From Helicobacteraceae bacterium (GTDB lineage Bacteria > Campylobacterota > Campylobacteria > Campylobacterales > SZUA-545): DNA of 57,392 nt. A program made the position numbers and the translations under genes. Under the pieces are notes generated by a model. The model was given only the letters and a program-made list of their open reading frames with translations, had not been told where the DNA came from and ran no database searches. The DNA is taken from the NCBI GenBank assembly GCA_031268655.1, contig JAIRWX010000006.1, forward strand, positions 1-57,392, read 5' to 3'. This document shows positions 8,218 through 39,983 of this stretch, piece by piece; position 1 is the first letter of the stretch, and each line of letters starts with the position of its first letter.

Positions 8218-8776
8218 CGATCAACTCCTTGATATTTTCCGTGATTTTTTCGATCGGCAACACCGCGTCGATCGGCACGAGAGGAACGTTTAATAATTCC
8301 GCCGCGTCCTTGAGCCGCTCCTGAATGGCAAGGAGCGCGTCCGCGCCTTGTTTTTCGATCTCGTCGGGCTTTTGCCGCGCCATTCTGGTCTGCAACGTTT
8401 GCGCGTTAAGTTCCAGCAAGATCGCCAAATCGGGAACGATCTGGCGCGCCGCCAGCAAGTTCAAAGCCTTCAGATCCTCTTTCGGCGCGTAGTCCCAAGC
8501 GTACGCTACGCCCGAAATCAAGCTGCGATCGGAGACGATCAGTTTGCCTTCGTTTGCCGCTAAGACGCGCTCCGCGTGTTCGGCGCGATCGGCTAGGAAC
8601 AAAAACATTCTGCACAGCGCGCCCATTTTACCGCCTAGCGCTATGTCTCTGATCTTCTCGCCAACCTCCGTGCCGCCGGGTTCGCGCGTAAACGCCGCCT
8701 CTTTGTAAATTTTTTTCAGCTCGATAATCTGCGCGCTTTTGCCCGCGAAATCTACGCCCTCGATCGCCACAAACAT
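8201..8776 (-). CDS. tmk: Thymidylate kinase
   Basis: Phosphorylates dTMP to dTDP with ATP in the cytosol. The 191-residue protein has the P-loop GVDFAGKS (residues 7-14), the REPGGTEVGE substrate loop and the VSDRSLISG segment of the DRY/DRS-type motif. The ATG directly follows the coaD stop with no gap, and the gene overlaps hisS at its 3' end. The coaD-tmk-hisS order suggests one housekeeping operon. Confidence 0.95.
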   Translation of the reverse strand: MFVAIEGVDFAGKSAQIIELKKIYKEAAFTREPGGTEVGEKIRDIALGGKMGALCRMFLFLADRAEHAERVLAANEGKLIVSDRSLISGVAYAWDYAPKEDLKALNLLAARQIVPDLAILLELNAQTLQTRMARQKPDEIEKQGADALLAIQERLKDAAELLNVPLVPIDAVLPIEKITENIKELIDDYGA

Positions 8777-9256
8777 TCAGACGCTTTTCGTTTGAATATA
8801 TTTCGCCGCGCCGATCGGCACGAGATGATCAATCGGTCCCCCGTGTCGCATGATCGATCGCACCGCGGAGGCGCTGATAAAGGCGTATTTCAACGCGGGC
8901 ATCAGATATATGGTCTCGATATTTGGATCAAGGCTTTCATTGGCGTAGCCCATTTGCAACTCGTATTCAAAATCGCTCACGGCGCGAAGCCCGCGCACCA
9001 GCACGCGGACGTTCTGCTCTTTGGCAAAGCGCACCAAAAGCGTCTCAAAGGGCAAAACCCGTGCGTTTTTTACCTCGGCTACGGCTAAAGAGACCATAGC
9101 CACGCGATCGTCCAGAGAGAACGCGGGGCTTTTATCCGCGCTTTTCGAGACCGCGACAATCACCTCGTCAAACAGCGACGCGGCTCGGTGGATAACGTCC
9201 AGATGCCCGTTGGTAATCGGATCGAACGAACCCGGATATATAGCCCGTTTTTTCAA
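8777..9256 (-). CDS. coaD: Pantetheine-phosphate adenylyltransferase CoaD
   Basis: CoaD transfers AMP from ATP to 4'-phosphopantetheine, the penultimate step of coenzyme A synthesis. The nucleotidyltransferase signature PGSFDPITNGH with the TxGH motif sits at the N-terminus, and an ISASAVRSI segment lies near the C-terminus. I place the start at the TTG at 9256: GAAGG lies eight bases upstream and it gives 159 residues, the usual family length. A longer frame to 9298 adds residues atypical of CoaD. It is the first gene of the tmk-hisS run and is divergent from the envelope locus. Confidence 0.93.
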   Translation of the reverse strand: MKKRAIYPGSFDPITNGHLDVIHRAASLFDEVIVAVSKSADKSPAFSLDDRVAMVSLAVAEVKNARVLPFETLLVRFAKEQNVRVLVRGLRAVSDFEYELQMGYANESLDPNIETIYLMPALKYAFISASAVRSIMRHGGPIDHLVPIGAAKYIQTKSV

Positions 9257-9288
9257 TACAATCGCCTTCAAAGCGTAATAAAGGCGCG

Positions 9289-9294
9289 AGTATA
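9289..9294 (-). promoter_or_regulatory. Candidate -10 element for coaD-tmk-hisS
   Basis: TATACT on the minus strand, about 33 bases before the TTG start of coaD and within the divergent gap to the LtaS-like gene. Promoters in this phylum have a good -10 and a poorly conserved -35, so this is plausible, but it rests on one hexamer. Confidence 0.4.
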
Positions 9295-9390
9295 ACACAA
9301 AACTTTGGCGCGCGACTTGACGGGAGCGGCGCGCTTTCGCAAATCGCTTTTCGATAAACTTGCGCGATTATTTAATTCGGAAGGCGGCGT

Positions 9391-11310
9391 TTGCGCGGTT
9401 TGCTCTCTTTGCTAAAGCCCTTTGCGTTTTTCTGTCTGATTTTCTTTGCCCTTTTTGCGGGTTTAAGAGTCGCATTCGCGGTTTTTTACGCGCCTGAAGC
9501 GATAAACGTTAACGATCTTTGTACGGCGCTTTTGATCGGCGCGAGAATGGATTCTATTGTTATTTGCGCGTTGTCGCTGCCCGTCGTTGTATGGACTATT
9601 GCGTCTAACTGCAAGCCGCAAATCGTTAGCCGATTGTATTTTGCTTTTTGCGCATTTTTATTAACTTTTTTTGAGGTTATATCGGCAGGGTTTCTAGATC
9701 AATACGGCCTACGCCCAAATCATCTGTTTTTTGATTATCTGGATCACCCCAAAGAGATATTTTATATGCTGATTTTTGGCTATCCGATCTTGACGTTGAT
9801 CGGCATTTTATTAACCATATTAGCGGCGTTTACGGGTTATAAAATAGGCTCGATTAAAGCCCGCGCCGCGCCGCTTAAAATCCGCCTGATCGCAACGCCG
9901 ATCGCAATCGTCGTCTTGTCGATCGGCGCTCGCTCCAGTTTTGGCATATCGGCGGCAAATCTCGGCGTTACGATGTTTGGAGCTTCGCAAACGCTTAACG
10001 AGATCGCCTCCAACGGAACATACTCCGCGCTGTACTCGCTCTATCAGCTCGACAAAGAGGTTGATCTAAGCGAATATGGAGCGATGGACGACGAAGAGAT
10101 CTTAGCTCGGACGGGCTTTGGCGCTCGGACGTTTAGCGGCACAACGCCGTCCGATCCGCCAAATATCGTTATCGTCATTTGGGAGAGCATGGGCGCGGAA
10201 TTTATAGGCGCTTTGGGCGGTCTGCCGCTAACGCCGAATTTCGATAATCTTGCCAAAGAGGGTACGCTGTTAACCAATATGTACGCGACGGGAACGCGGA
10301 CGAGCCGAGGTATCGAGGCGATTTTGGCGGGGTTTCTGCCGATTGTCGGCGCGCCCGTTGTAAAACTGCCAAAATCGCAAAACGATTTCTGGACGATCGC
10401 AAACCACCTAAAACCGCTGGGCTACAACTGCGAGTTTTTATACGGCGGCGACGCTAACTTTGACAATATGAGCCGTTTTTTAGGCGGCAACGGCTTCGCG
10501 ATCCGCTCCTATTTCGCGCGCGGCGAAGGTTACGACGGCAGATGGGGCAGCGACGATCTGGCGGTTTTTATGGCGGCAAACCGCGAGTTCGCAAAAGCCG
10601 ACGCGCCGTTTTGCGCCGTTATTTTGACGCTCTCGTCTCATCTGCCGTTCGACTATCCAAACGGCGTTGTCGCGCCGTATAACTCCCCCGCCGCCACGCG
10701 GGAAAACGCGGCGTTGTTCGCGGATTACGCGCTTGGCGAGTTTTTCAAAGCGGCGAAACGAGAGCCGTATTATCAAAATTCGATTTTTTTGATCGTCGCC
10801 GATCACACTATTCAGGTGCGCGGCGGCGATCCCTTTGCGCCGCTTGAAAAATATCGTATCCCCGCGCTCTTTCTGGGCAGAGGGGTTAGCGCGGCGAAAA
10901 ACGAAACGATCGCCTCTCAGGTCGATCTGCCGCCCACGCTAATCGCGCTGATTGGCGACGATCGTCCGCGACCGCCGATCGGGCGCGATCTGTTTGCCGC
11001 CTCCGACGAAAAGGGCGAAGCCGTTATGCAGGCCGGCTCCGCTTTTGCCTATCTCGCGGGCGATACGATAACGATTTTGCGCAGGGGCGGTTTTGAGACG
11101 CAGGCGAGGGTTGACGAGAACGGATCGTACAGCCTAAGGAGGGACTTTGCGCTTGGCGAAGACGGCGAATACATCGGCGCTTTGGAGGACGCAAACGCGA
11201 CAGAGGGGCGAACAATCGACGACGAGCTTGCCCGCGACGCGCTGGCAAGGCTGTTGCTGTCCAATCTGCTTTACCAAAAGCGCCTTCACAGCGCGCGGAT
11301 CGTACAATAA
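9391..11310 (+). CDS. LTA synthase-like membrane sulfatase-fold transferase
   Basis: Probably transfers phosphoglycerol or a similar phospho-group to a surface glycan or lipid on the periplasmic side. About five membrane helices occupy residues 1-170. The periplasmic alkaline-phosphatase-superfamily domain starts at IVIVIWESMG (metal glutamate). It continues with TPNFDNLAKEG, a likely nucleophile threonine in TRTSRG, the SSHLPFDYP loop, and the VADH metal motif. The start is TTG with GGAAGG upstream. It heads a run of eleven co-directional envelope genes, with four bases to the next gene. The substrate cannot be read from sequence; a phosphoethanolamine donor is an alternative. Confidence 0.85.
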   Translation: MRGLLSLLKPFAFFCLIFFALFAGLRVAFAVFYAPEAINVNDLCTALLIGARMDSIVICALSLPVVVWTIASNCKPQIVSRLYFAFCAFLLTFFEVISAGFLDQYGLRPNHLFFDYLDHPKEIFYMLIFGYPILTLIGILLTILAAFTGYKIGSIKARAAPLKIRLIATPIAIVVLSIGARSSFGISAANLGVTMFGASQTLNEIASNGTYSALYSLYQLDKEVDLSEYGAMDDEEILARTGFGARTFSGTTPSDPPNIVIVIWESMGAEFIGALGGLPLTPNFDNLAKEGTLLTNMYATGTRTSRGIEAILAGFLPIVGAPVVKLPKSQNDFWTIANHLKPLGYNCEFLYGGDANFDNMSRFLGGNGFAIRSYFARGEGYDGRWGSDDLAVFMAANREFAKADAPFCAVILTLSSHLPFDYPNGVVAPYNSPAATRENAALFADYALGEFFKAAKREPYYQNSIFLIVADHTIQVRGGDPFAPLEKYRIPALFLGRGVSAAKNETIASQVDLPPTLIALIGDDRPRPPIGRDLFAASDEKGEAVMQAGSAFAYLAGDTITILRRGGFETQARVDENGSYSLRRDFALGEDGEYIGALEDANATEGRTIDDELARDALARLLLSNLLYQKRLHSARIVQ

Positions 11311-11314
11311 CGCT

Positions 11315-13132
11315 ATGAATGCCCGTCTAGCGCTGTTTGCAAAAGCCAACCTGGTTTTCATCTCGGTTCTATTTTGCGCGTTTTTACTGCTCGCAAACGG
11401 ATTTGACGCGGCTTCGCTGATCGTCTCGACGCTGGCGGCGCTATCGACGGCGCTGATGTTTTTTGTCGTACTATGGCTCGTTTGCGCGCTGTTCGGCGCG
11501 TTTCGCCGCGCGGGATTTATGATCGCCGCGACGCTGTTTGCGATCTTCGAGCTTTTGCTGATCGTAGATTTTTTTATATATCGTCTTTATTATACGCATA
11601 TCGACGCTATGATTTTGAACATAGTCTTTTCGCCCGCCGCGTTAAACAATATCGATCTGGGCGTTTATCCATATATCATATTTGCCGTTCTAGCGCTGTT
11701 GATCGCGGCTTTTCAATATCTTCTTTATTGCGTTATACCCTATGATAATAAAGCCAGAAAGATCAATAGACGGATCAATATATTTTTAATCCCGCTTTTT
11801 GTTTTGCTGATCGTTTCAGACAAGTTGATCGTTGGTTTTGCGGGTTTGTATTCGCGCACGGAGATTTTGGATAAGCTGCGCGTTATTCCTTACTATCAAC
11901 CGCTTAGTTTTACGAGGTTTGCTAACAAGTATTTTGGCGTGGAGCCGTCGCCAAGACCGATCGCTCTTATCGGGGAAAACGCAAACTCGCAGCTTGATTA
12001 TCCAAAAAATCCGTTGCGTTTTGACGAGAACTATGACGCGAGCAACATTATGGTTATTATGCTGGACGCGGTAAGATGGGATATGATCGACGAGGAGAGC
12101 GCGCCCGCTATAAACGCGCTAAAGCGAGAATCGATCGTTTTTAACAACCATTTCAGCGGCGGCAACGCGACGAGATTTGGCGTATTTTCGCTATTTTACG
12201 GACTTAACGCGCCCTATTGGTTTGCGTTTTTGAGTAGCCAGCGAAACAGCCTGTTGTTTGACGCTCTGGCATATCGCGGTTTTGATATTCGGATATTTGC
12301 CGCGAGCGATCTGAATTGGCCCGAGTTTCGCCGCACTGTTTTCGCCTCGATCAACGACAAAATCATAGACAATTTTGAAGGTCCTCCATATCAAAGGGAT
12401 TATCAGGCGAACGAAGAGGTTTTAAGGTGGCTTGATCAAAATCTTACCGAGCCGTTTTTTGCTTTTATTTTTTACGACGCGCCGCACCAATTTAGCTATC
12501 CGCAAACGCATAGCAAATTTAAGCCAGACGGCGAAGGCGATAAAAATTATCTCACGCTTGGCGCTAGCCAGCGCGATATACTATTTAATCAATATAAAAA
12601 CGCGATCTATTACGACGATTTTCTGATCGCGCAGATTATTGCAAGGCTAAAGACAAGCGGCGCGTTTGAGCGCACAAAAATTATTATCGCCGCCGATCAC
12701 GGCGAAGAGTTTTATGAAAGCGGCGGCTTCGGACATAATCACGCCTTTAGCGTTCAGCAGACAAAGCCTCTGTTTTTTATGCGCCTGCCTAATCAAGAGC
12801 CGCGAACGATTAACGATCTAACCAGCCACGTCGATTTTGTTCCTACCGCTATGCGTTGGCTGGGCGTTCAAAATTCGACGGACGATTACGCGAATGGCGA
12901 CGATCTGTTTCACCCAAAACAGCGGCGCGAATATGCGGTGATCGGCGCTTGGAATTTTAACGCTATCGTAGAAAATAATCAAACGCTTGTTTTCTCCGCG
13001 CACCCCGATCCTATAAACGGCGTTCGCGTTTTTGATACGGATAGCTACAAGCCGTTGCCAAATTCGGCGCTAGGCGATCACAGCCAAGGCGTTTTGCGCG
13101 TAATGAACGAAAACAGAAAGTTTTATAAGTAG
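11315..13132 (+). CDS. YejM/PbgA-like inner membrane sulfatase-fold protein
   Basis: Five or so N-terminal membrane helices (residues 1-195) carry a periplasmic sulfatase-fold domain. The features NIMVIMLDAVRWD, HFSGGNATRFGVFSLFYG and the IIAADHGEEFY metal loop resemble YejM/PbgA, an enterobacterial regulator of lipopolysaccharide synthesis. The threonine in GNATR sits at the nucleophile position, so catalysis is possible. I use the ATG at 11315 (605 residues), just after the previous stop, rather than an upstream start inside that gene. Its role here is inferred only from the envelope-locus context. The next gene starts directly after its stop. Confidence 0.8.
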   Translation: MNARLALFAKANLVFISVLFCAFLLLANGFDAASLIVSTLAALSTALMFFVVLWLVCALFGAFRRAGFMIAATLFAIFELLLIVDFFIYRLYYTHIDAMILNIVFSPAALNNIDLGVYPYIIFAVLALLIAAFQYLLYCVIPYDNKARKINRRINIFLIPLFVLLIVSDKLIVGFAGLYSRTEILDKLRVIPYYQPLSFTRFANKYFGVEPSPRPIALIGENANSQLDYPKNPLRFDENYDASNIMVIMLDAVRWDMIDEESAPAINALKRESIVFNNHFSGGNATRFGVFSLFYGLNAPYWFAFLSSQRNSLLFDALAYRGFDIRIFAASDLNWPEFRRTVFASINDKIIDNFEGPPYQRDYQANEEVLRWLDQNLTEPFFAFIFYDAPHQFSYPQTHSKFKPDGEGDKNYLTLGASQRDILFNQYKNAIYYDDFLIAQIIARLKTSGAFERTKIIIAADHGEEFYESGGFGHNHAFSVQQTKPLFFMRLPNQEPRTINDLTSHVDFVPTAMRWLGVQNSTDDYANGDDLFHPKQRREYAVIGAWNFNAIVENNQTLVFSAHPDPINGVRVFDTDSYKPLPNSALGDHSQGVLRVMNENRKFYK

Positions 13133-14164
13133 ATGAGATTTTTTCATCTTGTTAATGTACGTTGGTATAACGCGACGGCGTGGTATGCGTTAAATCTTTG
13201 CAGGTTGCTGCAAAAAGCCGGATTTGAAACGGTCGCGGGCGTGTTGCCCGACACAAAAACGGCGCAAACGGCTAGGGCGATGGGCATAAGAACCTACGAG
13301 GATAAGTTTAACGCCGTAAACCCGATCGGCGCGGCGATTCGTCTTAACGCTTTTTTGCGCGATTTCGCGCCCGACGTTGTAACGGCGCATAGAGGGGAGT
13401 TTTTCTGGTTTTTGGCGCTTAAGCGTTTTTTTGGCGCGCGCTGGAAACTTTTGCGCGTTCGTGGCGATCGGCGCGTAACAAAAGCAAGCGCTATTAACCG
13501 CTTTTTACACAACAGGTGCGCCGATCATATTATCGTAAGCGGCGAATGGATTAAAGCCAGTCTGATCGATCGCTTGAAAACGCAAAGCGACAAAATCAGC
13601 GTGATTTACGGCGGCGTGGATACGCAAAAATTTGCTTTTGATAAATCGGGCAGGGAGCGCGTAAGAAACGAGTTTGGCTTTGCAAAAGAGGATATAGTCG
13701 TCGGGCTGGTTGGACGATACGGCGAGGTTAAAGGGCATAAATACCTGATCGACGCGCTGGCTATATTGCGACAAAGCGACAAACGCTATAAACTGCTATT
13801 GGTTACCGATAGCGCCGATCTGAATATCGCCGATCTGCAAAGCTATATCGACGATCGCGGGTTGAAAGCGGCTGCTTTTATAACCGGTTTTCGCGCCGAT
13901 ATTACCGCCTGCGTTAGCGCTTTTGATATAGGCGCGATCGCTTCGTTAGGCAGCGAAGCTATATGCCGCGCCGCGTTTGAAATAATGGCGATTGGCGTTC
14001 CTCTTATCGCCACGGCGGTCGGAACGTTGCCGGAAATTATTTCAAGTCTTGCGCCGCCGAATAACGCGGCGGCGCTTGCCGATAAGATCAAAAACCGCGA
14101 CGGCGGTATCCGCATTTTTAGCGACGAAGCGTTTTTAAGCTCGTATTTGGAGATTGTTAAATGA
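13133..14164 (+). CDS. Glycosyltransferase family 4
   Basis: A cytosolic-face GT-B transferase adding a sugar to an envelope glycan. The 343-residue protein has an N-terminal Rossmann domain (FHLVNVRWYN) and a C-terminal donor-binding domain with GLVGRYGEVKGHKYLIDAL. The ExxxxxxxE motif lies in SEAICRAAFEIM, followed by ATAVGTLPEII, as in GT4. The start codon is immediately after the YejM-like stop. Its own stop overlaps the next start (ATGA). Donor and acceptor are unknown. Confidence 0.85.
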   Translation: MRFFHLVNVRWYNATAWYALNLCRLLQKAGFETVAGVLPDTKTAQTARAMGIRTYEDKFNAVNPIGAAIRLNAFLRDFAPDVVTAHRGEFFWFLALKRFFGARWKLLRVRGDRRVTKASAINRFLHNRCADHIIVSGEWIKASLIDRLKTQSDKISVIYGGVDTQKFAFDKSGRERVRNEFGFAKEDIVVGLVGRYGEVKGHKYLIDALAILRQSDKRYKLLLVTDSADLNIADLQSYIDDRGLKAAAFITGFRADITACVSAFDIGAIASLGSEAICRAAFEIMAIGVPLIATAVGTLPEIISSLAPPNNAAALADKIKNRDGGIRIFSDEAFLSSYLEIVK

Positions 14165-14985
14165 TTGAAAAAACGCTTTTGAGCGTCGCGGTTATTACCT
14201 TTAACGAGGAAGAAAATCTAGCGCGAACGCTAAAGGCGGTTAAACCTCTTGCGGACGAAATTATTGTAGTGGATTCGCATTCGACCGATCGCACAAGAGA
14301 GATCGCGTTGAATTATGGCGCGAAAGTTTTTGACGAGGATTGGAAGGGGCATATAGCGCAAAAAAACTCGGCGCTGGAAAAATGCGTAGGCAAATGGATA
14401 TTTTCAATCGATGCGGACGAGGTCTTAAGCGCCGAACTTGCTAAGGCTATCGCGCAAGCGATCGCTGGCGAAAACGCGGAAGGTTTTATAATAAGCCGCA
14501 AAAGCGTATATCTTGGCAAAACGTTAAATTATATGTGGCGACCCGATCGCCATTTACGGCTTGTAAAACGCGACGCAAAACCGCGCTGGAGCGGTTATAA
14601 TCCGCACGATATATTAACAATCGAGGGCAAAACGGCGCCGCTGAAAGGCGACCTGATTCACTATTCGTATAAAGACCTGAGCGATCATTGGCGTCGGTTA
14701 ATAGTATATGCGCGTTTAGCGGCTGAATCCTACGCGCAAAAAGGCAGACGCTTTTCGCTGTTTAGATTACTTTTTAATCCGCTTTGGGGTATAATAAAAA
14801 CTTATATTTTTCGCTTGGGTTTTCTCGATGGCATACAGGGTTTGTTAGCGGCTTTTAGCAAGGGGGTTTATATCTTTTTGAAATACGCCTTTTTGTTTGA
14901 ACTGCAACTTGCGAGCAAAAAAACGTCCGACAAGAATAAAGACGCAAAAAGATCGAATAATGGTTATCGTAAGGAGAGCGCTTGA
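14161..14985 (+). CDS. GT2 glycosyltransferase, WaaE/LgtF-like
   Basis: A GT-A fold family 2 enzyme of the lipopolysaccharide inner-core glucosyltransferase type (LgtF/WaaE). Motifs seen are VAVITFNEEENL at the N-terminus, IIVVDSHSTDRT, and the metal-binding SIDADEVLS (DxD). The RPDRHLRLVKR and HDILTIEG segments recall the same subfamily. The C-terminus is basic and could associate with the membrane. Its start overlaps the previous gene by four bases, and its stop overlaps a TTG start of the next. Beta-glucosyl or heptosyl acceptor activity is inference. Confidence 0.82.
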   Translation: MIEKTLLSVAVITFNEEENLARTLKAVKPLADEIIVVDSHSTDRTREIALNYGAKVFDEDWKGHIAQKNSALEKCVGKWIFSIDADEVLSAELAKAIAQAIAGENAEGFIISRKSVYLGKTLNYMWRPDRHLRLVKRDAKPRWSGYNPHDILTIEGKTAPLKGDLIHYSYKDLSDHWRRLIVYARLAAESYAQKGRRFSLFRLLFNPLWGIIKTYIFRLGFLDGIQGLLAAFSKGVYIFLKYAFLFELQLASKKTSDKNKDAKRSNNGYRKESA

Positions 14986-15824
14986 CGCTCGTTTCAATTA
15001 TAATTCCCACCTATAAGCGCCAGAATCTTTTGCAAAGAGCGATCAAATCGGCGTTAAGTCAAACATATAAAAATATTGAAGTTCTGGTATGCGACGACGA
15101 GAAAAGCGCCGCAACAAAAGCGATTGCAGAATCGATCGCAAAAAATGACAATCGCCTGCGTTACCTTGAGAACGTTAGAACAAAAGGGGTAAGCGGCGCT
15201 AGAAATACCGGAATTTACGCCGCCAAGGGGGAGTATTGCATCTTTTTGGACGACGACGACGAGATGCTATTCGACGCAATCGAAGCGCTCGCAAATAACG
15301 TTCCTGAAGAGGCTGCGTTTGGCTGCGGCTGGCGAAATTTCTGCGATCGAAACGGCAAAACAGAGATTCACAAACATATCGCCGAAATAGATTTTGATTT
15401 TTTGGTAAAGCGCGGATCGTGCGCGTCCGGTCCCGCTATGTTTGTTCAAACATCGCGCCTTAAGACGATCGGCGGTTTTGACGAAGCTGTCTCGGTAACC
15501 GAGGACTACGATTTGAGTCTGCGTTTGACTAAACGTTTCGGCGCGGCGATAGAGATCGAAAAAGTTACGATAAATTATTATATACACGACGGTGACAGAT
15601 TGAGCGCGAACGGACTTAAGCTCTATAAAGGCAAGCGATCTATCATTCTTAAACACGGTAAAGACTTCGGTAAGAGAGCAAGAGCGTTATACCTCTACCG
15701 AACGCGAAGAAACTACTATGGAATCAATCCGAGAAGAGCTTTTGCCTGGTTGCCGCTAGGCAAAGCTATCGACGAACTTCGCCGCTATATTAAACGCAAA
15801 TACTTCAGCCGCAAAAACAAATGA
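14982..15824 (+). CDS. GT2 glycosyltransferase, tandem copy 1
   Basis: A GT-A family 2 transferase: VSIIIPTYKRQNLL, ALSQTYKNIEVLVCDD, GARNTGIYAAKGEY, then the DxD-containing FLDDDDEML. The 280-residue protein starts with TTG overlapping the previous TGA, with AAGGAG upstream. The first 67 or so codons are nearly identical at the DNA level to the next gene, while the rest is only moderately similar. The shared part holds the nucleotide-sugar binding region. The divergent part includes the acceptor side, so the pair probably uses one donor class on different acceptors. Confidence 0.85.
   Translation: MTLVSIIIPTYKRQNLLQRAIKSALSQTYKNIEVLVCDDEKSAATKAIAESIAKNDNRLRYLENVRTKGVSGARNTGIYAAKGEYCIFLDDDDEMLFDAIEALANNVPEEAAFGCGWRNFCDRNGKTEIHKHIAEIDFDFLVKRGSCASGPAMFVQTSRLKTIGGFDEAVSVTEDYDLSLRLTKRFGAAIEIEKVTINYYIHDGDRLSANGLKLYKGKRSIILKHGKDFGKRARALYLYRTRRNYYGINPRRAFAWLPLGKAIDELRRYIKRKYFSRKNK
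14987..15187 (+). repeat. 201-bp near-identical direct repeat, copy A
   Basis: This segment matches 15835-16035 with four mismatches that I can count (three change an amino acid: I/V, V/I and T/I). Past the end, similarity falls sharply to the level of diverged paralogues. It spans the 5' end of the first tandem GT2 gene. Confidence 0.9.
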
Positions 15825-16669
15825 ACGACGCGCCGCTCGTTTCAATTATAATTCCCACCTATAAGCGCCAGAATCTTTTGCAAAGAGCGGTCAAATCGGC
15901 GTTAAGTCAAACATATAAAAATATTGAAGTTCTGATATGCGACGACGAGAAAAGCGCCGCAACAAAAGCGATTGCAGAATCGATCGCAAAAAATGACAAT
16001 CGCCTGCGTTACCTTGAAAACGTTAGAATAAAAGGCGCGTGCGGCGCCAGGAATACCGGAATTTATGCGGCGCAAGGAGAAATTGTCGCGCTGTTTGACG
16101 ATGACGACGAGATATTAAGCGGCGCGATAGAATCGTTTATAAATCTCGATCTGTACGGGCGCGCTTTTGCCTACGCTTGGCACAACAGAATCTACGAAAA
16201 CGGCAAAATAAAACTTTCTAATAATCCTTCTGATATTGATTATGAAAAATTGGCAAAAGCGGGACAAAATATCGCAAACTCTATGCTATGCGTCGCCAGA
16301 GGAAATCTTGTAGCGATCGGCGGCTTTGACGAAACGTTAAGCGCCTGCCAGGATTACGATCTCTGCCTTAGACTTACAAAGCGCTTTGGAAGCGCCGTTC
16401 TTGCGCCAAACGCGCTATTTAACTACTATTCGGCAAAAAGTTACGAGCGAATATCCAACAGCGCGGATAAAAAATATCGCGGCATGCGCAAGATCGCCTT
16501 AAAACACTCCCGCGAGTTTCCTAAACAATATCGCGCAAAATATCTGTACAAAGTCCGTAAATACCTCTACGGAGCTCATTTGGGACGCGCCTTTGCATGG
16601 TTGCCGCTAAAAGAGGCGCTAAAAGAGCTAAAACATTTCATTAAACACAAAATCAAAAGCGCCGTTTAA
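15821..16669 (+). CDS. GT2 glycosyltransferase, tandem copy 2
   Basis: Paralogue of the preceding gene (282 residues) with the same GT2 motifs: VSIIIPTYKRQNLL, GARNTGIYAAQGEI and the DxD in LFDDDDEIL. The C-terminal halves share the YDLCLRLTKRFG-type and AFAWLPL segments, so they are true duplicates that diverged. The first 201 bases of shared coding sequence are nearly identical, implying recent gene conversion or a recombined duplication. The ATGA overlaps the previous stop. The donor sugar is unknown. Recombination between copies would delete one gene and make a hybrid. Confidence 0.85.
   Translation: MNDAPLVSIIIPTYKRQNLLQRAVKSALSQTYKNIEVLICDDEKSAATKAIAESIAKNDNRLRYLENVRIKGACGARNTGIYAAQGEIVALFDDDDEILSGAIESFINLDLYGRAFAYAWHNRIYENGKIKLSNNPSDIDYEKLAKAGQNIANSMLCVARGNLVAIGGFDETLSACQDYDLCLRLTKRFGSAVLAPNALFNYYSAKSYERISNSADKKYRGMRKIALKHSREFPKQYRAKYLYKVRKYLYGAHLGRAFAWLPLKEALKELKHFIKHKIKSAV
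15835..16035 (+). repeat. 201-bp near-identical direct repeat, copy B
   Basis: Second copy of the repeat at 14987-15187, offset by 848 bases in the same orientation. Homologous recombination between the copies would excise 848 bases, fusing the 5' end of copy 1 to the body of copy 2. Because the segments align codon for codon, the fusion would stay in frame. Confidence 0.9.
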
Positions 16670-17796
16670 TGAACATTCTGTATATATCATGCAAAAAGAG
16701 TTGGGGCGGCGTAGCAAGCTGGATGGTAAAAACCGCTGAAGCTTTGGAACAAAGAGGACATAAAGTATTTATTCTCTCGGCGCGCCATTCGTTTTTTACG
16801 CAAAACGCGCCTAAAAGTTTGCGTTTGATCCCTTGGAATTTCGGCGTCGATTACAGCCTAGTTACAATTTTTTATATAATTTATTTAATAAAAAAACACC
16901 GCGTTAATATCGTGGTTACAAATATCGAAAAAGAGATCGCGTGCGGAGGAATCGCCGCAAAAATTTGCGACGTTCCAAACATTCGCCGCGTCGGGCGGCA
17001 CGATGATTTCAACGACGCTAAACCCAAAATCCGTTTCAGACACGAACGTTTCGTTACGACAAGCGTCGCCCCGTGCGGCGCCGTTTGGCGCGAGGCGCTT
17101 TCGCATTCGCCGTGGTTGAGCGATTACCCTTTTACTACGATCTACAACGGACGCGATCCCGTCCGATCTGATTCCAAATCCGTCGCCGCTTTGCGCGAGT
17201 CGTGGGGAATCGACAAGACGACGATTGCGATAGGAACGACCTCGCGGCTTAACGGCGAAAAAAGAATCGATCTGATCATCGGCGCGTATGTCGCCGCTTT
17301 GCCCAAAATTCGCGCCCCTTCGGCGCTTGTTATATGCGGAAGCGGCAAAATGGAGACGAGTCTAAAAGCGTTTTGCGCCTCTTTGGGCGCGGCAAATCAT
17401 ATTTATTTTGTCGGCTTTACGACAAATCCTCAGCTTGCGGCTTCGGCTTACGATATCGCTTTAAGCGCCGCGGATAATGAAGGTTTTCCTAACTCGGTAG
17501 TGGAGTATATGGCGCAGGGTTGCGCTACAATCGCCGTCGATACGGGAGGGGTAAAAGAGATTGTAATCGATCGCGAGAATGGTCTTCTGATAGACAAAGG
17601 GGATGAAAAAGCGTTGACGGATAAAATCATTATGCTTGCAAACGATGCGGCGCTGCGAAAAAAACTTGGTAAAGCGGCGCAAAAGCGCGTAATGGAAAGT
17701 TTTAGCGAGGCGACGATGATCGATCGGTTTGAAGCCTTTTATCAGGAAGCGGCTACGGCAAGCAGGAGTAAAAAATCTCCGCAAAAACGCGATTAA
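16669..17796 (+). CDS. Glycosyltransferase family 4
   Basis: A GT-B transferase of 375 residues. The N-terminal ISCKKSWGGVASWM segment resembles the glycine-rich acceptor-side loop of GT4 enzymes. The donor domain has GTTSRLNGEKRIDLI, GSGKMETSLK, and the ExxxxxxxE motif in EGFPNSVVEYMAQG, followed by VDTGGVKEIV. The ATG overlaps the preceding TAA by one base (TAATG). The tail is basic (SRSKKSPQKR), which may help membrane binding. Specificity is unknown. Confidence 0.85.
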   Translation: MNILYISCKKSWGGVASWMVKTAEALEQRGHKVFILSARHSFFTQNAPKSLRLIPWNFGVDYSLVTIFYIIYLIKKHRVNIVVTNIEKEIACGGIAAKICDVPNIRRVGRHDDFNDAKPKIRFRHERFVTTSVAPCGAVWREALSHSPWLSDYPFTTIYNGRDPVRSDSKSVAALRESWGIDKTTIAIGTTSRLNGEKRIDLIIGAYVAALPKIRAPSALVICGSGKMETSLKAFCASLGAANHIYFVGFTTNPQLAASAYDIALSAADNEGFPNSVVEYMAQGCATIAVDTGGVKEIVIDRENGLLIDKGDEKALTDKIIMLANDAALRKKLGKAAQKRVMESFSEATMIDRFEAFYQEAATASRSKKSPQKRD

Positions 17797-17817: not shown

Positions 17818-19335
17818 ATGACGATACAAAAACCGTCGCCAAAAAAATCGATTGAAATCGCCGCGATCGCTACGGCGACTACGATTTTTTGTATATTTCA
17901 AGCCGTAGGCGTAGGGCTGCCTATTATTGAACGAATTATCGCAAGCATAGCGTTAATATGGTTTGCAAGATATTATAAGATCGTCGCGATCGCGATCTTT
18001 ATTGTTTTTGTCGTTCCGCTGTTTTATCTTCCGGCGGGTTTTGAATACGGCGCGCCTACGTCCGGTTATATAGCGGCGGTTTTTGAAACCAATCCTAACG
18101 AAACCGCCGAGTTTTTATCCATCTTGCCGATTCGCAACTTTTTCTATCCGGCGGCGCTGCTCGCGGTTCTTGCTTACGCGCTCTTTTGGCGGCGGCTGTA
18201 CCCCCCCCCCCCCCCCCCCAACGGACAAGTAAGCGGGCATGCGAAAACAGCCGCGCTTATCGTAATAATTATCACGCTGTTTTTTAGCTCGATACCATAT
18301 AGGTTTTATCGGGCGATCTATAAAAGTTATGTCGCGTACGCCGATCTAATCGCCAAAGCCGAAGCTACCCCAATAAAAAAGTATGAAATCATAAAACGCG
18401 CCGACGCCGCAAATAAAGATATTCGCATCGTCGTTATAGGCGAAAGCGTTCGCAAGGATTATTTAAGCGTTTATGGTTATCCGCATCAAACCACGCCGTT
18501 TTTAGATAACGCCAACGGCGTATTTATCGACAAAATGATCGCCGCCGGTCCAAGCACAATGGCGTCGCTTTCGCGAATGCTTACCGCTAAAGAAAACGGA
18601 CAGATCGACTGGTCGCGTACAATCGTAACGCTTGGCTCTCAAATAGGGTATGAAACCTATTGGATTTCCAACTCAGGCTTTGCAGGTAAGACGGCTACCG
18701 CGGTTTCGCTGATCGCTTCGAGAAGCGATCGTTCGATATTTCTAAATACGGCGGGAAGCGTTAATTCAGGCGCGGTTGACGACTTTGCGGCGCTGGGAAA
18801 ATTCGACGAGATATTGCAAACGCCCGCACAAACTCCAAAGCTGGTATTTATACACATGGCGGGTTCACATTCGGAGGCTTGCAACAGGCTTTACGGCTTT
18901 CCAAACAGATTTAACTTACCATACGGCGAAGAGCATAACTGCTATCTCGCTACGATAGATAAACTAGATAGTTTTATTAAAGCCCTGATCGATCAAACAA
19001 AGCGGCAAAAATTAAGCTGGTCGCTTATCTACTTTTCCGATCACGGACAAGAACACTACGGCGATAAAAAACAAATTGGATTAAGACATGGCGGCAGGGC
19101 AAAACAGAGCTATGAAGTTCCCCTGTTTTTGCTGGACGACAACGCGACCGAGCATATAGTAATCAAACGGCAAATCAGCGGACTGCATCTAATCGATCTC
19201 GTAGCCTCGTGGCTTGGGGCGGAGACCGACAGAACAGATTCGCGTTATACCTTTACGGATTTCCTCGAGGATAGCGCTATCGATACCTCTAACGGCGCTT
19301 TTGACAATCTAAAGGACGATCCCGCGCTTTATTAG
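17818..19335 (+). CDS. EptA-like phosphoethanolamine transferase with a phase-variable C19 tract
   Basis: A membrane enzyme of the sulfatase superfamily that most likely transfers phosphoethanolamine to lipid A or core sugar. About five helices (residues 1-165) precede a periplasmic domain. That domain has IVVIGESVRKDYLSVYGYP, TTPFLDN, a likely nucleophile threonine in GPSTMASLSRML, HMAGSH, and FSDHGQEHYG. Codons 128-134 (Tyr then six Pro) hold 19 consecutive C bases. With 18 C the frame ends after 137 residues; with 20 C after 156. Both lose the catalytic domain, so the gene is in the ON frame here. AGGG precedes the ATG. The length (505) fits the family. Confidence 0.9.
   Translation: MTIQKPSPKKSIEIAAIATATTIFCIFQAVGVGLPIIERIIASIALIWFARYYKIVAIAIFIVFVVPLFYLPAGFEYGAPTSGYIAAVFETNPNETAEFLSILPIRNFFYPAALLAVLAYALFWRRLYPPPPPPNGQVSGHAKTAALIVIIITLFFSSIPYRFYRAIYKSYVAYADLIAKAEATPIKKYEIIKRADAANKDIRIVVIGESVRKDYLSVYGYPHQTTPFLDNANGVFIDKMIAAGPSTMASLSRMLTAKENGQIDWSRTIVTLGSQIGYETYWISNSGFAGKTATAVSLIASRSDRSIFLNTAGSVNSGAVDDFAALGKFDEILQTPAQTPKLVFIHMAGSHSEACNRLYGFPNRFNLPYGEEHNCYLATIDKLDSFIKALIDQTKRQKLSWSLIYFSDHGQEHYGDKKQIGLRHGGRAKQSYEVPLFLLDDNATEHIVIKRQISGLHLIDLVASWLGAETDRTDSRYTFTDFLEDSAIDTSNGAFDNLKDDPALY
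18201..18219 (+). repeat. C19 homopolymer, slipped-strand phase-variation tract
   Basis: Nineteen consecutive C (poly-G on the other strand) within the coding sequence of the EptA-like gene, between membrane segments and before the catalytic domain. Long G/C tracts of this kind switch surface genes in Campylobacter and Helicobacter by slipped-strand mispairing. No other homopolymer of comparable length was noticed in the window. Confidence 0.93.
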
Positions 19336-21614: not shown

Positions 21615-22652
21615 CTAAATTCCTTTATCGTTATTTATATCTTTTGCCGTTATCGAAAGATAAAGTTTCATATATTCGCTCGTCATATTTTCGGACGAAA
21701 ATAGATATGACTTTTCTTTTGCCGCCGACACGATAGCGCTTAAATCGGCTTTAAGCGCTTTTTCTATCGCCGTTTTTATCGCCCCAGCGTCTTTTGGCGG
21801 AACGAGAAAACCGGTTATATTATGCGCGATTAGATCGGGTATGCCGCCTACGTCGGAGGCGATAATGGGAACTTCCAAGCGCATCGCGTCGATAAGCGTC
21901 GAACCCAGCCCCTCTTGCAGGGAGGGAAAAACAAAAAGATCGAACGCCGCGATATAGTCGGCGACGTTGTTTTTGAAACCGAGAAAATATACGTTATTCA
22001 ATCCTTCCGCGCTTTGCTTTAATTTCGCTTCGTCCTCGCCCTCTCCGAGAAAAACGAACGCCAAATCATCGCGTTTTAGCATACGCGCCGCGTCGATAAG
22101 ATAGCGCTGTCCCTTATATTCCGCCAATGCGCCGATTGAGCCGATTATTGTTTTGCCCGCAAACGCTTTTCGTATCTCCTCGCATTTTTGCGAATTTGGC
22201 GCAACATCGCAGGCGGCGCTTAAAATTACCGATACGTTTAGCGATGGATCGTATGATAGTAAGATTTCTTTGATCGCCTTTGAGATTGCCGCGACGGCAC
22301 TCGCTTTTTTATATACGACTCTCGTTTTTGGCTTAAGCGCGTTTAACACGCGGCGCGTGATAATATACGGCGTTTTTCTCAATATATTTTCGATCCATGC
22401 CCAACGCGCCGCTTTTGCCTCGTGGGCGTGCAGCAGATCGCTTTTAATCGCGCCGATGTGTCCGCTGAAAAAATAGTTCGCGAAATACAATTCCAGCGAT
22501 TTTATATCTCTCAAACGCTCGATTAAAGGCGAATCTTTGCGGCAAACAAGCGTCTGTTTTATATCCATTTTTGCAAGCTCTCTGATTAGCAGTTCCGTTT
22601 GCCTTTCGCCGCCGCGAAATCCGCGAGCTAAATTGATATGTGCGATACGCAT
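21615..22652 (-). CDS. Glycosyltransferase family 4
   Basis: A GT-B transferase of 345 residues: INLARGFRGGERQTELLIREL at the N-terminus (glycine-rich acceptor loop), IGSIGALAEYKGQRYLID and FLGEGEDEAKL in the donor domain. EGLGSTLIDAM occupies the usual ExxxxxxxE position, with Asp in place of the second Glu, followed by SDVGGIPDLI. Its ATG overlaps the waaF stop by one base, so it is translationally coupled to waaF. Specificity is unknown; a core or O-chain sugar transferase is likely. Confidence 0.85.
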   Translation of the reverse strand: MRIAHINLARGFRGGERQTELLIRELAKMDIKQTLVCRKDSPLIERLRDIKSLELYFANYFFSGHIGAIKSDLLHAHEAKAARWAWIENILRKTPYIITRRVLNALKPKTRVVYKKASAVAAISKAIKEILLSYDPSLNVSVILSAACDVAPNSQKCEEIRKAFAGKTIIGSIGALAEYKGQRYLIDAARMLKRDDLAFVFLGEGEDEAKLKQSAEGLNNVYFLGFKNNVADYIAAFDLFVFPSLQEGLGSTLIDAMRLEVPIIASDVGGIPDLIAHNITGFLVPPKDAGAIKTAIEKALKADLSAIVSAAKEKSYLFSSENMTSEYMKLYLSITAKDINNDKGI

Positions 22653-23644
22653 TAGCCGTCCGTTAGTTTATATAACGCTTCCATTACCATTTGCGGCGTT
22701 ATATTATTAAGGCAGTTTGTATGCCCAAGCGGACAAACTCGCTCAAAGCATGGCGAGCAGGGCAGGTTGAGCGAAACAATCGTTTTTTTATCGGTCAGCG
22801 GCGGCGTGTAATCTGGAGTGGACGAGCCGTAAATTGCCGTTATTTTTACGCCCGTAGCCGCTCCGATATGCATAAGTCCGCTATCGTTGCAAATCGCCGT
22901 TTGCGCCAAAGATATTAAGTCGATCGCGTCGGTTAGCGTCGTTTTGCCGCATAGATCGACCGCTTGCGAAGCGATCGCGGTTATTTTCGCGCTTATCGCC
23001 CGATCGTTAGACGATCCGAATATCCAAACGGCGTAGTTATCCGCGATTAACCTATTGGCAAGATCGCCGAAGTTTTCCGCCGACCAGCGCTTTGCTTCGC
23101 CGTACTCCGCGCCGACAAACAGCGCCGCGATCGGCTTTGCCGCGTTTAGCTTAAGCTTTTTTAACAATTTTTCTCGGTTGTTTTGATCGACCGACAGCGC
23201 GGGAAATTGCGGCGCGGCGGTTATATCGTCTAGCGCCAGATATTTTTCTATCATCGTCGGCTTTTTGCTATGCGTTTTTTTTATATCGTTTATAACGCCA
23301 AAACGCATTTCTCCAAGCAGTCCGCTGCGAATTGGAATATGCGCGAAAAAGGGGATCAAAGCCGATTTGAACGTGGTCGGCATAACGATAGCGCGATCGT
23401 AACGTTCCGATCGCAGTTTTTTGCCCAACGTATAGCGTTTTTTAAGTCCAAACTCCCCATGTTTTATATCCAAAAGGATCGTCTTTCGTACCTCGCTCAT
23501 TCGCCCGCAAATATCCAGCGCCCATTTTGGCGCTACAACGTCGATGATCGCGCTAACGCCGTAGCGGGTTTGTAGCGCTTTGAACAGCGTTTGCGCTATT
23601 ACCATATCGCCGATCCAGCTCGGCGCGACGATCAAAAGTTTCAC
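22652..23644 (-). CDS. waaF: ADP-heptose:LPS heptosyltransferase II WaaF
   Basis: Adds the second L-glycero-D-manno-heptose to the inner core. The 330-residue GT9 protein has APSWIGDMVIAQTL (acceptor loop), VDVVAPKWALDI, and the AIVMPTTFKSALIPF segment typical of WaaF. GAEYGEAKRWSAENFGDLA and the donor site CNDSGLMHIGAATG follow, then the PCSPCFERVCPLGH cysteine cluster common in this subfamily. It overlaps pseI by four bases upstream. This links core assembly with pseudaminic acid synthesis on one transcript. Confidence 0.92.
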   Translation of the reverse strand: MKLLIVAPSWIGDMVIAQTLFKALQTRYGVSAIIDVVAPKWALDICGRMSEVRKTILLDIKHGEFGLKKRYTLGKKLRSERYDRAIVMPTTFKSALIPFFAHIPIRSGLLGEMRFGVINDIKKTHSKKPTMIEKYLALDDITAAPQFPALSVDQNNREKLLKKLKLNAAKPIAALFVGAEYGEAKRWSAENFGDLANRLIADNYAVWIFGSSNDRAISAKITAIASQAVDLCGKTTLTDAIDLISLAQTAICNDSGLMHIGAATGVKITAIYGSSTPDYTPPLTDKKTIVSLNLPCSPCFERVCPLGHTNCLNNITPQMVMEALYKLTDG

Positions 23645-38486: not shown

Positions 38487-39983
38487 ATGCGCGAATTTTT
38501 GGCATCGATTTTAAACGCCTGCAAAAATCTATTGCCGATTATCGGCGTGGTCATTTTTTTTCAACTCGCGGTTTTTGGCGGCGTTCCCGAAAATCTTAGC
38601 TCCATCGCTATCGGAATGGTTATCGTGGTGATTGGAATCGCGTTGCTGTTGCAGGGACTGGAACTTGGCGTGTTTCCGATCGGCGCGAATTTATCGAACG
38701 AATTGACGCGCAAGGGCAATCTGTTTGTATTGTTGCTGTTTGGTTTCTGCCTAGGTTTTGCGGCGGTGATCGCCGAACCGGCGCTGATCGCGGTAGCCGA
38801 TCAAGCGGAGGGTATCAGCGCGGGGCGCATAAATGCTCTGACGCTTCGCGTCGTTATAGCGATTTCGGTTGGAATTGTAATGATGATCGGCATTTTGCGC
38901 ATCGCGTTCGGTCATCTATTATCATGGTATATGCTTGGCGGTTACGCGATTGTCTCGATCGTCAGTTTTTGCGCTCCCGACGAGATTTTAGCGCTCGCTT
39001 ACGACAGCGGCGCGGTAACCACAAACGTGGTAACCGTTCCGCTGATCGCCGCGTTTGGCGTGGGGCTTGCGGGCGCGATCAAAGGGCGCGACACTTTAAC
39101 CGACGGATTTGGCTTGGTGGCTATGGCGTTGCTTGCGCCGACGATCAGCCTCTTGTTTTACGGGATTGCCGTCTATAGCGATTCCGTCGCGGCGATCGAG
39201 ATCGCGACAGACGCGGCGGCGGTTGTGCCGCAAGAGGGCGAAGTCGCCGTTTTTGCCTTGAACGCGGCGATTTTTGAGCTGCTTGAGATGTTTCGAGACG
39301 TGCTGCCAATTATCGTCGTCGTTCTGTTTTTTCAGTTTATCGTTCTGCGTCGCCCGCTAGCCAGAGCGCACCACGTGGCGGGCGGTTTTTTTATGGTTAT
39401 CTGCGGGCTTTACGCCTTTACGGTCGGTCTGAAGCTGGGGCTTTTTCCGATCGGAACGGCGATGGCAAATCAGCTGATTTTAAGCGGCGTAAGCGTCGCT
39501 TTCGTCTATCTGTTCGCCTTCGCGCTGGGCTTTGCGGCGGCTATGGCGGAACCGGCGCTGATCGCGGTGGGCAAACAAGCCGAGGAAGCGGCCAAAGGAC
39601 GGATAAAAGCGAGTATTATTAGATTGATGGTTGCGCTGGGAGTCGCTTTTGGAATCGCGATCGGAGCGCACCGAATACTAAGCGGCGAGTCTATGAGGGC
39701 GTTTGTGATCGTAGGCTTCGCGGTAGCCGCGTCGCTGTCGGCGATATCGCCGCGATATATCGTCGCGCTCGCGTTCGATATGGGCGGCGTGGCTTCCAGC
39801 GTAATCAGCGTGCCGTTGATCACCGCGCTCGGCTTGGGGCTTGCGGAGAATATAGAAGGACGCAGTGCGCTGATCGACGGTTTTGGGCTGCTTATTTTCG
39901 CTTCGTTTTGCCCCGCGATCACCATTATGTGTTACGCGCTGGCGGTAGAATGGAAAACAAAACGTATAAAGGAGGAAAAATGA
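38487..39983 (+). CDS. DUF1538 family membrane protein (internally duplicated)
   Basis: A polytopic inner membrane protein of 498 residues with two homologous halves. LGVFPIGANLSNELTRKGN and AVIAEPALIAVADQAEG recur as LGLFPIGTAMANQLI and AAMAEPALIAVGKQAEE. The GAVTTNVVTVPLIAAFG segment of half 1 matches GGVASSVISVPLITALG in half 2. This fits DUF1538, which is thought to be a transporter of unknown substrate. Stop and next start overlap (ATGA). A PII-like and a CBS protein follow, suggesting metabolite-sensing control of transport. Substrate unknown. Confidence 0.85.
   Translation: MREFLASILNACKNLLPIIGVVIFFQLAVFGGVPENLSSIAIGMVIVVIGIALLLQGLELGVFPIGANLSNELTRKGNLFVLLLFGFCLGFAAVIAEPALIAVADQAEGISAGRINALTLRVVIAISVGIVMMIGILRIAFGHLLSWYMLGGYAIVSIVSFCAPDEILALAYDSGAVTTNVVTVPLIAAFGVGLAGAIKGRDTLTDGFGLVAMALLAPTISLLFYGIAVYSDSVAAIEIATDAAAVVPQEGEVAVFALNAAIFELLEMFRDVLPIIVVVLFFQFIVLRRPLARAHHVAGGFFMVICGLYAFTVGLKLGLFPIGTAMANQLILSGVSVAFVYLFAFALGFAAAMAEPALIAVGKQAEEAAKGRIKASIIRLMVALGVAFGIAIGAHRILSGESMRAFVIVGFAVAASLSAISPRYIVALAFDMGGVASSVISVPLITALGLGLAENIEGRSALIDGFGLLIFASFCPAITIMCYALAVEWKTKRIKEEK

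Follow-up and report, generated by a model that had tools for sequence, protein, structure and literature searches.

How can two neighbouring glycosyltransferase genes be almost identical over a 201-bp block at their 5′ ends and clearly diverged thereafter? The question was raised by an earlier note on the window, the whole stretch of 57,392 nucleotides analysed here (contig JAIRWX010000006.1 of a Helicobacteraceae bacterium), which proposed recent conversion or recombination at the 5′ ends and, through the exchange of donor and acceptor modules, a change in glycan structure. To answer it, we compared the genome of this window (G000) with 6 other genomes of the genus, among which G002, G003 and G006 carry one or both of the genes.

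The gene pair and its locus

The two genes, called A and B here, stand in a run of surface-sugar genes, of which the following bear on the argument (window coordinates):

14161..14985, + strand: upstream GT2 gene of the cluster (PF00535), without a copy of the block and outside the pair proposed to convert
14982..15824, + strand: GT2 gene A, an open reading frame of 280 aa (PF00535, E=1.1e-33)
15821..16669, + strand: GT2 gene B, an open reading frame of 282 aa (PF00535, E=2.2e-29)
16669..17796, + strand: downstream GT4-type glycosyltransferase (PF00534/PF13439)
17818..19335, + strand: phosphoethanolamine-transferase-like enzyme with sulfatase fold (PF00884), CptA/EptA-like below the curated cut-offs
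22652..23644, − strand: heptosyltransferase II, waaF (TIGR02195, 399 bits against a cut-off of 134.6)

Gene A starts at a TTG codon that overlaps the stop of the upstream GT2 gene, and its 3′ end overlaps gene B through ATGA. Both products are members of the GT2 family, which has the GT-A fold: A scored 116.9 bits and B 103 bits against PF00535, whose curated cut-off is 23.3, and they were matched by GT2 models only, with no match to the GT25 family. A Rossmann-like GT-A fold was predicted for A (model pLDDT 90.7), with the DxD motif present as DDDD at residues 90-93 (D90-D93). The solved structures nearest to this model are those of the GT-A enzymes chondroitin polymerase K4CP, CgT and the fucosyltransferase WrtF.

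Further neighbours of the pair are GT4 enzymes, a GT9 protein and PseI, PseG and PseF of the pseudaminic acid pathway. The presence of waaF marks the locus as one for the LPS/LOS core, and its type is that of the outer core (lipooligosaccharide-type). Gene content upstream of A varies among the four genomes with the locus (window 11000-16700; L023, L024, L025), and the GT4 gene downstream of the pair differs in G006. The glycosyltransferase locus is thus a variable surface-glycan locus.

The 5′ block in this genome

Direct comparison confirmed two blocks with four differences, followed by divergence, as had been described. Along A and B the following parts can be told apart:

14987..15187, + strand: the 5′ block as found in A (A residues 3-68), which matches its B counterpart at 98%
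15188..15279, + strand: transition zone in A, with the GARN helix and the DDDD (DxD) motif; identity to B falls from ~85% to 62%
15280..15821, + strand: diverged 3′ part of A, orthologous to the A 3′ part in G002 and G006
15835..16035, + strand: 5′ block, copy in B, offset by 848 from the copy in A
16128..16666, + strand: diverged 3′ part of B, orthologous to the B 3′ part in G002, G006 and G003

The copies differ at 4 of 201 positions, namely 15042 (A/G, I/V), 15087 (G/A, V/I), 15170 (G/A, silent) and 15181 (C/T, T/I), and three of the four differences change a residue. Before 14987 the two sequences are no more alike than expected by chance, and 3′ of the block identity drops over ~50 bp to 40-60% in the remainder of A and B, so that divergence along the two genes is uneven. 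The silent positions follow the same boundary. Where A and B have the same residue, the codons are identical at 58 of 58 sites inside the block compared with 46% outside it (0 of 10,000 permutations), and the NG86 dS between the genes is 0.024 in the block and ~3 (saturated) in the 3′ part.

The block corresponds to strands 1-3 and helices 1-2 in the nucleotide-binding half of the GT-A fold and ends just before the GARN helix, ~20 residues short of the DDDD motif. The claim that the nucleotide-sugar half is shared and the acceptor half is not overstates the shared portion, which is limited to these strands and helices.

A repeat finder also picked out this pair, with the match lengthened to 247 nt (94%), and nothing else in the window came close to it as a direct repeat. 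The search for a third donor was likewise negative: no third block copy is present in the 1.63-Mb genome, and this candidate was rejected. No unrelated GT2 gene was found to carry the block at the same low distance. Homopolymer phase variation was also rejected, as the pair contains no long homopolymer tract (no A/T run ≥7 and no C/G run ≥6 in 14982-16669). A plain tandem duplication of whole genes, such as the evenly similar one in G027 (90% over 2.1 kb), does not fit the pattern either.

Elsewhere in the window, two 76-bp stretches (38736-38811 and 39510-39585), 774 bp apart and 78% identical, code for similar peptides; they may stem from a duplication, internal or in tandem, affecting a membrane protein.

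Conversion tracts in related species

The A-B pair is available from three species only (G000, G002 and G006), all known from draft assemblies, with one genome per species. G002 and G006 have the same tandem pair in the same order, A then B, and G003 has B only. The orthologues of A are 65% (G002) and 64% (G006) identical to it, and those of B 75% (G002), 71% (G006) and 69% (G003).

Trees were computed from a codon alignment, the 3′ part being taken from column 105 to the end. In the 5′ tree, the two genes of each genome grouped together, that is G0A with G0B, G2A with G2B (bootstrap 95) and G6A with G6B (bootstrap 97), and the orthology topology was rejected for this part (delta lnL 67, AU p=5e-5). 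The 3′ tree separated an A clade from a B clade with support of 100, and every species-wise grouping of the paralogues was rejected (delta lnL 126-178, AU p≤6.4e-5). Clustering of paralogues by species in the tract region and by gene outside it is the pattern by which gene conversion is recognized. Within the B clade, the G003 gene lies outside the other B genes, which shows that the duplication is older than the split of the G003 lineage; A was most likely lost in G003.

Within-genome comparison of A with B gave sharp-edged tracts of silent-site identity on a diverged background, a second mark of gene conversion. Silent codons were identical at 58/58 sites in the G000 tract and 37/40 in the G002 tract (p<1e-4 for each), and the G006 tract (16/16, p=0.0135) is moderately significant on its own; 0 of 18 between-genome comparisons reached significance at 0.05. 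The tracts occupy codon columns 6-69 in G000, ~45-93 in G002, and 25-58 and 80-98 in G006, and these differing positions indicate separate events. Those of G002 and G006 run up to or just past DDDD. None of the tracts in the three species enters the acceptor half, and the 3′ halves of A and B are distinct in every species. The proposal of recent conversion at the 5′ ends is thus strongly supported, and the relatives add that it recurs.

The direction of copying is visible in G006. Within codons ~80-98 (L024), its B protein reads EYCVFLDDDDE, as do all A proteins, whereas the B proteins of G000, G002 and G003 have a sequence of the (I/F)(V/I)(A/S)LF type at this site. The donor was therefore A and the recipient B. 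G006 B is a natural in-frame graft with A-type sequence as far as the DxD motif, and domain grafting between A and B has occurred in the genus. For G000 and G002, the direction is not distinguishable from the sequences.

The G002 contig that carries the pair also has, within a gene, a direct repeat of 91% over 94 bp (L023:1754-1847 and 1905-1996).

Recombination machinery of the genus

The DNA-uptake gene ComEC was found in 6 of the 7 genomes of the genus, and RuvB in most of them. The sole MutS-type ATPase found is ~730 aa long, and its C-terminal Smr-like sequence in G000 suggests a MutS2. With this as the only such protein, recombination between diverged copies may be less strongly blocked than is usual.

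No full match to recA was obtained in G000, G002, G003 and G006, four of the seven genomes of the genus, one of them rated 99% complete; recA is present in the 3 others. The genomes without recA are all four that carry A and/or B, and they do not group as one clade. In most of the recA-bearing members of the family, the gene appears near a contig end, which makes a gap in assembly or binning the probable cause, and the absence may reflect such a gap rather than loss. If the clade were truly RecA-less, conversion would need a RecA-independent route.

A putative mechanism

Overall, the data are very probably explained by gene conversion that recurs in an anciently duplicated GT2 pair and is limited to its 5′ part. 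In our model, A and B go back to an old tandem duplication of a GT2 glycosyltransferase gene and belong to an LPS/LOS outer-core locus; their 3′ halves have diverged and have been kept distinct, presumably for different acceptors. The 5′ parts would still pair, as direct repeats ~850 bp apart, and would be overwritten again and again by non-reciprocal homologous recombination. Each event would homogenise a tract of ~50-200 bp, and the tracts would stop near the DxD motif, where the homology ends. The 5′ parts have thus been converted in no fewer than three species, in each of them separately, and G000 shows the latest case.

We infer that the exchange occurred inside a single genome and not between sister strains. 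The likely functional meaning is a shared fold and donor-binding core with separate acceptors. Most simply, the tracts are confined because the 3′ halves have become too unlike each other for pairing, although selection against the loss of one acceptor specificity would predict the same picture.

Alternative explanations

The explanation that survives best next to recurrent conversion is the one put forward in the earlier note, in which recent recombination swaps modules, creating new donor/acceptor combinations and variable surface glycans. Part of it stands: simulated fusions at the block are in frame both ways, G006 B is a graft of this kind, and in Helicobacter pylori the n and c modules of jhp0562/0563 recombine, with true hybrids occurring, most of them inactive (PMC6892558). 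A simulated deletion of 848 bp left an open frame whose product matches B exactly beyond the block, and the reciprocal junction was also open. However, the G000 copies differ by only three residues, so that hybrids equal their parents and recombination inside the blocks gives no new donor/acceptor combination. All that such recombination could do in G000 is make the copies more alike or remove one of the genes, and the 848-bp deletion would leave essentially B. Additionally, the tracts stop before the acceptor half, and in every species the two 3′ halves have stayed distinct. We therefore regard module swapping as unlikely.

A more elaborate proposal is that selection itself keeps conversion in the 5′ part. 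The two genes would then evolve jointly in a common donor-binding core that serves two acceptor ends; a donor specificity newly arisen in one gene would be copied into the other (in G006, from A into B), with the acceptor ends protected. If recA is truly missing from the genomes in which no match was obtained, the process would be RecA-free. We consider this proposal rather improbable.

It is less probable still that the 5′ parts of both genes were replaced by DNA from other strains or species, without exchange between A and B. The distribution of ComEC makes import possible. However, the same sequence would have had to enter both copies in three species, always matching the partner gene and never another species, which is unparsimonious, and no outside donor was found. 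Import into one copy followed by conversion between A and B is possible.

An assembly artefact, with a collapsed or chimeric repeat, is hardly credible. The genome is a draft of 76 contigs, and a 201-bp repeat is probably longer than a typical short read; on the other hand, the copies differ at four positions, and the same pair and gene order recur in two independent assemblies, each with its own different tracts. Least credible of all is stronger purifying selection on the nucleotide-binding 5′ part after one old duplication, without conversion: the 5′ part is better conserved at the protein level in all GT2 comparisons, but its silent positions are also identical between A and B, orthologues keep only ~37-72% of third positions there, and the silent-site identity together with the species-wise 5′ tree refutes this account. 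Constraint at the nucleotide level was excluded as well, with the block only ~65-83% identical between species.

Known parallels and significance

The closest known case is the H. pylori jhp0562/jhp0563 (beta-1,3-galT) pair. These adjacent paralogous LPS glycosyltransferase genes undergo intragenomic conversion, which has been seen in vivo during human challenge infection (PMC7448279); across strains, their N and C modules recombine, cognate partners are usually kept, and in-frame hybrids are rare (PMC6892558). The likeness to A and B lies in adjacent LPS glycosyltransferase paralogues that convert each other, in the same bacterial order. However, jhp0562/jhp0563 are reported to be GT25-related (PMC6892558) and linked to Lewis antigen synthesis, whereas A and B belong to GT2. 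The H. pylori genes also have a phase-variable homopolymer at the n3/c3 junction that A and B lack, and in A and B the shared part is always the 5′ part.

The tandem alleles of H. pylori HP1105 resemble A and B in being LPS glycosyltransferases told apart by their carboxy-terminal half (PMC6892558), and one N/C fusion is known, in strain B8 (PMC6892558). HP1105 is a different glycosyltransferase gene and is known from many strains, in contrast to one genome per species for A and B. Cj1421/cj1422 of Campylobacter jejuni was set aside as a precedent, as a published study of it does not mention shared N-termini.

A further tandem GT2 pair, from a different family of the order (G041, L114:7225-8433 and 8449-9642), has a shared start followed by abrupt divergence in an even more marked form: 263 of 263 silent codons are identical over residues 2-274, and the C-terminal thirds are diverged. 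This pair is not orthologous to A and B, and its shared part is longer, spanning ~two thirds of the gene with the DxD region inside it. It was the clear exception among the other tandem GT2 pairs surveyed in the order, most of which show plain domain similarity of 57-65% without tracts; the pattern is therefore not general to GT2 neighbours.

A and B provide a clean case, read from DNA alone, of half a gene in concerted evolution while the other half evolves separately, three times in parallel. Phylogenies, orthology calls and substrate predictions that are based on the N-terminal part will mislead for such GT2 pairs. For the order, the finding suggests that conversion between LPS glycosyltransferase genes of the H. 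pylori type also takes place in uncultured relatives, in another glycosyltransferase family.
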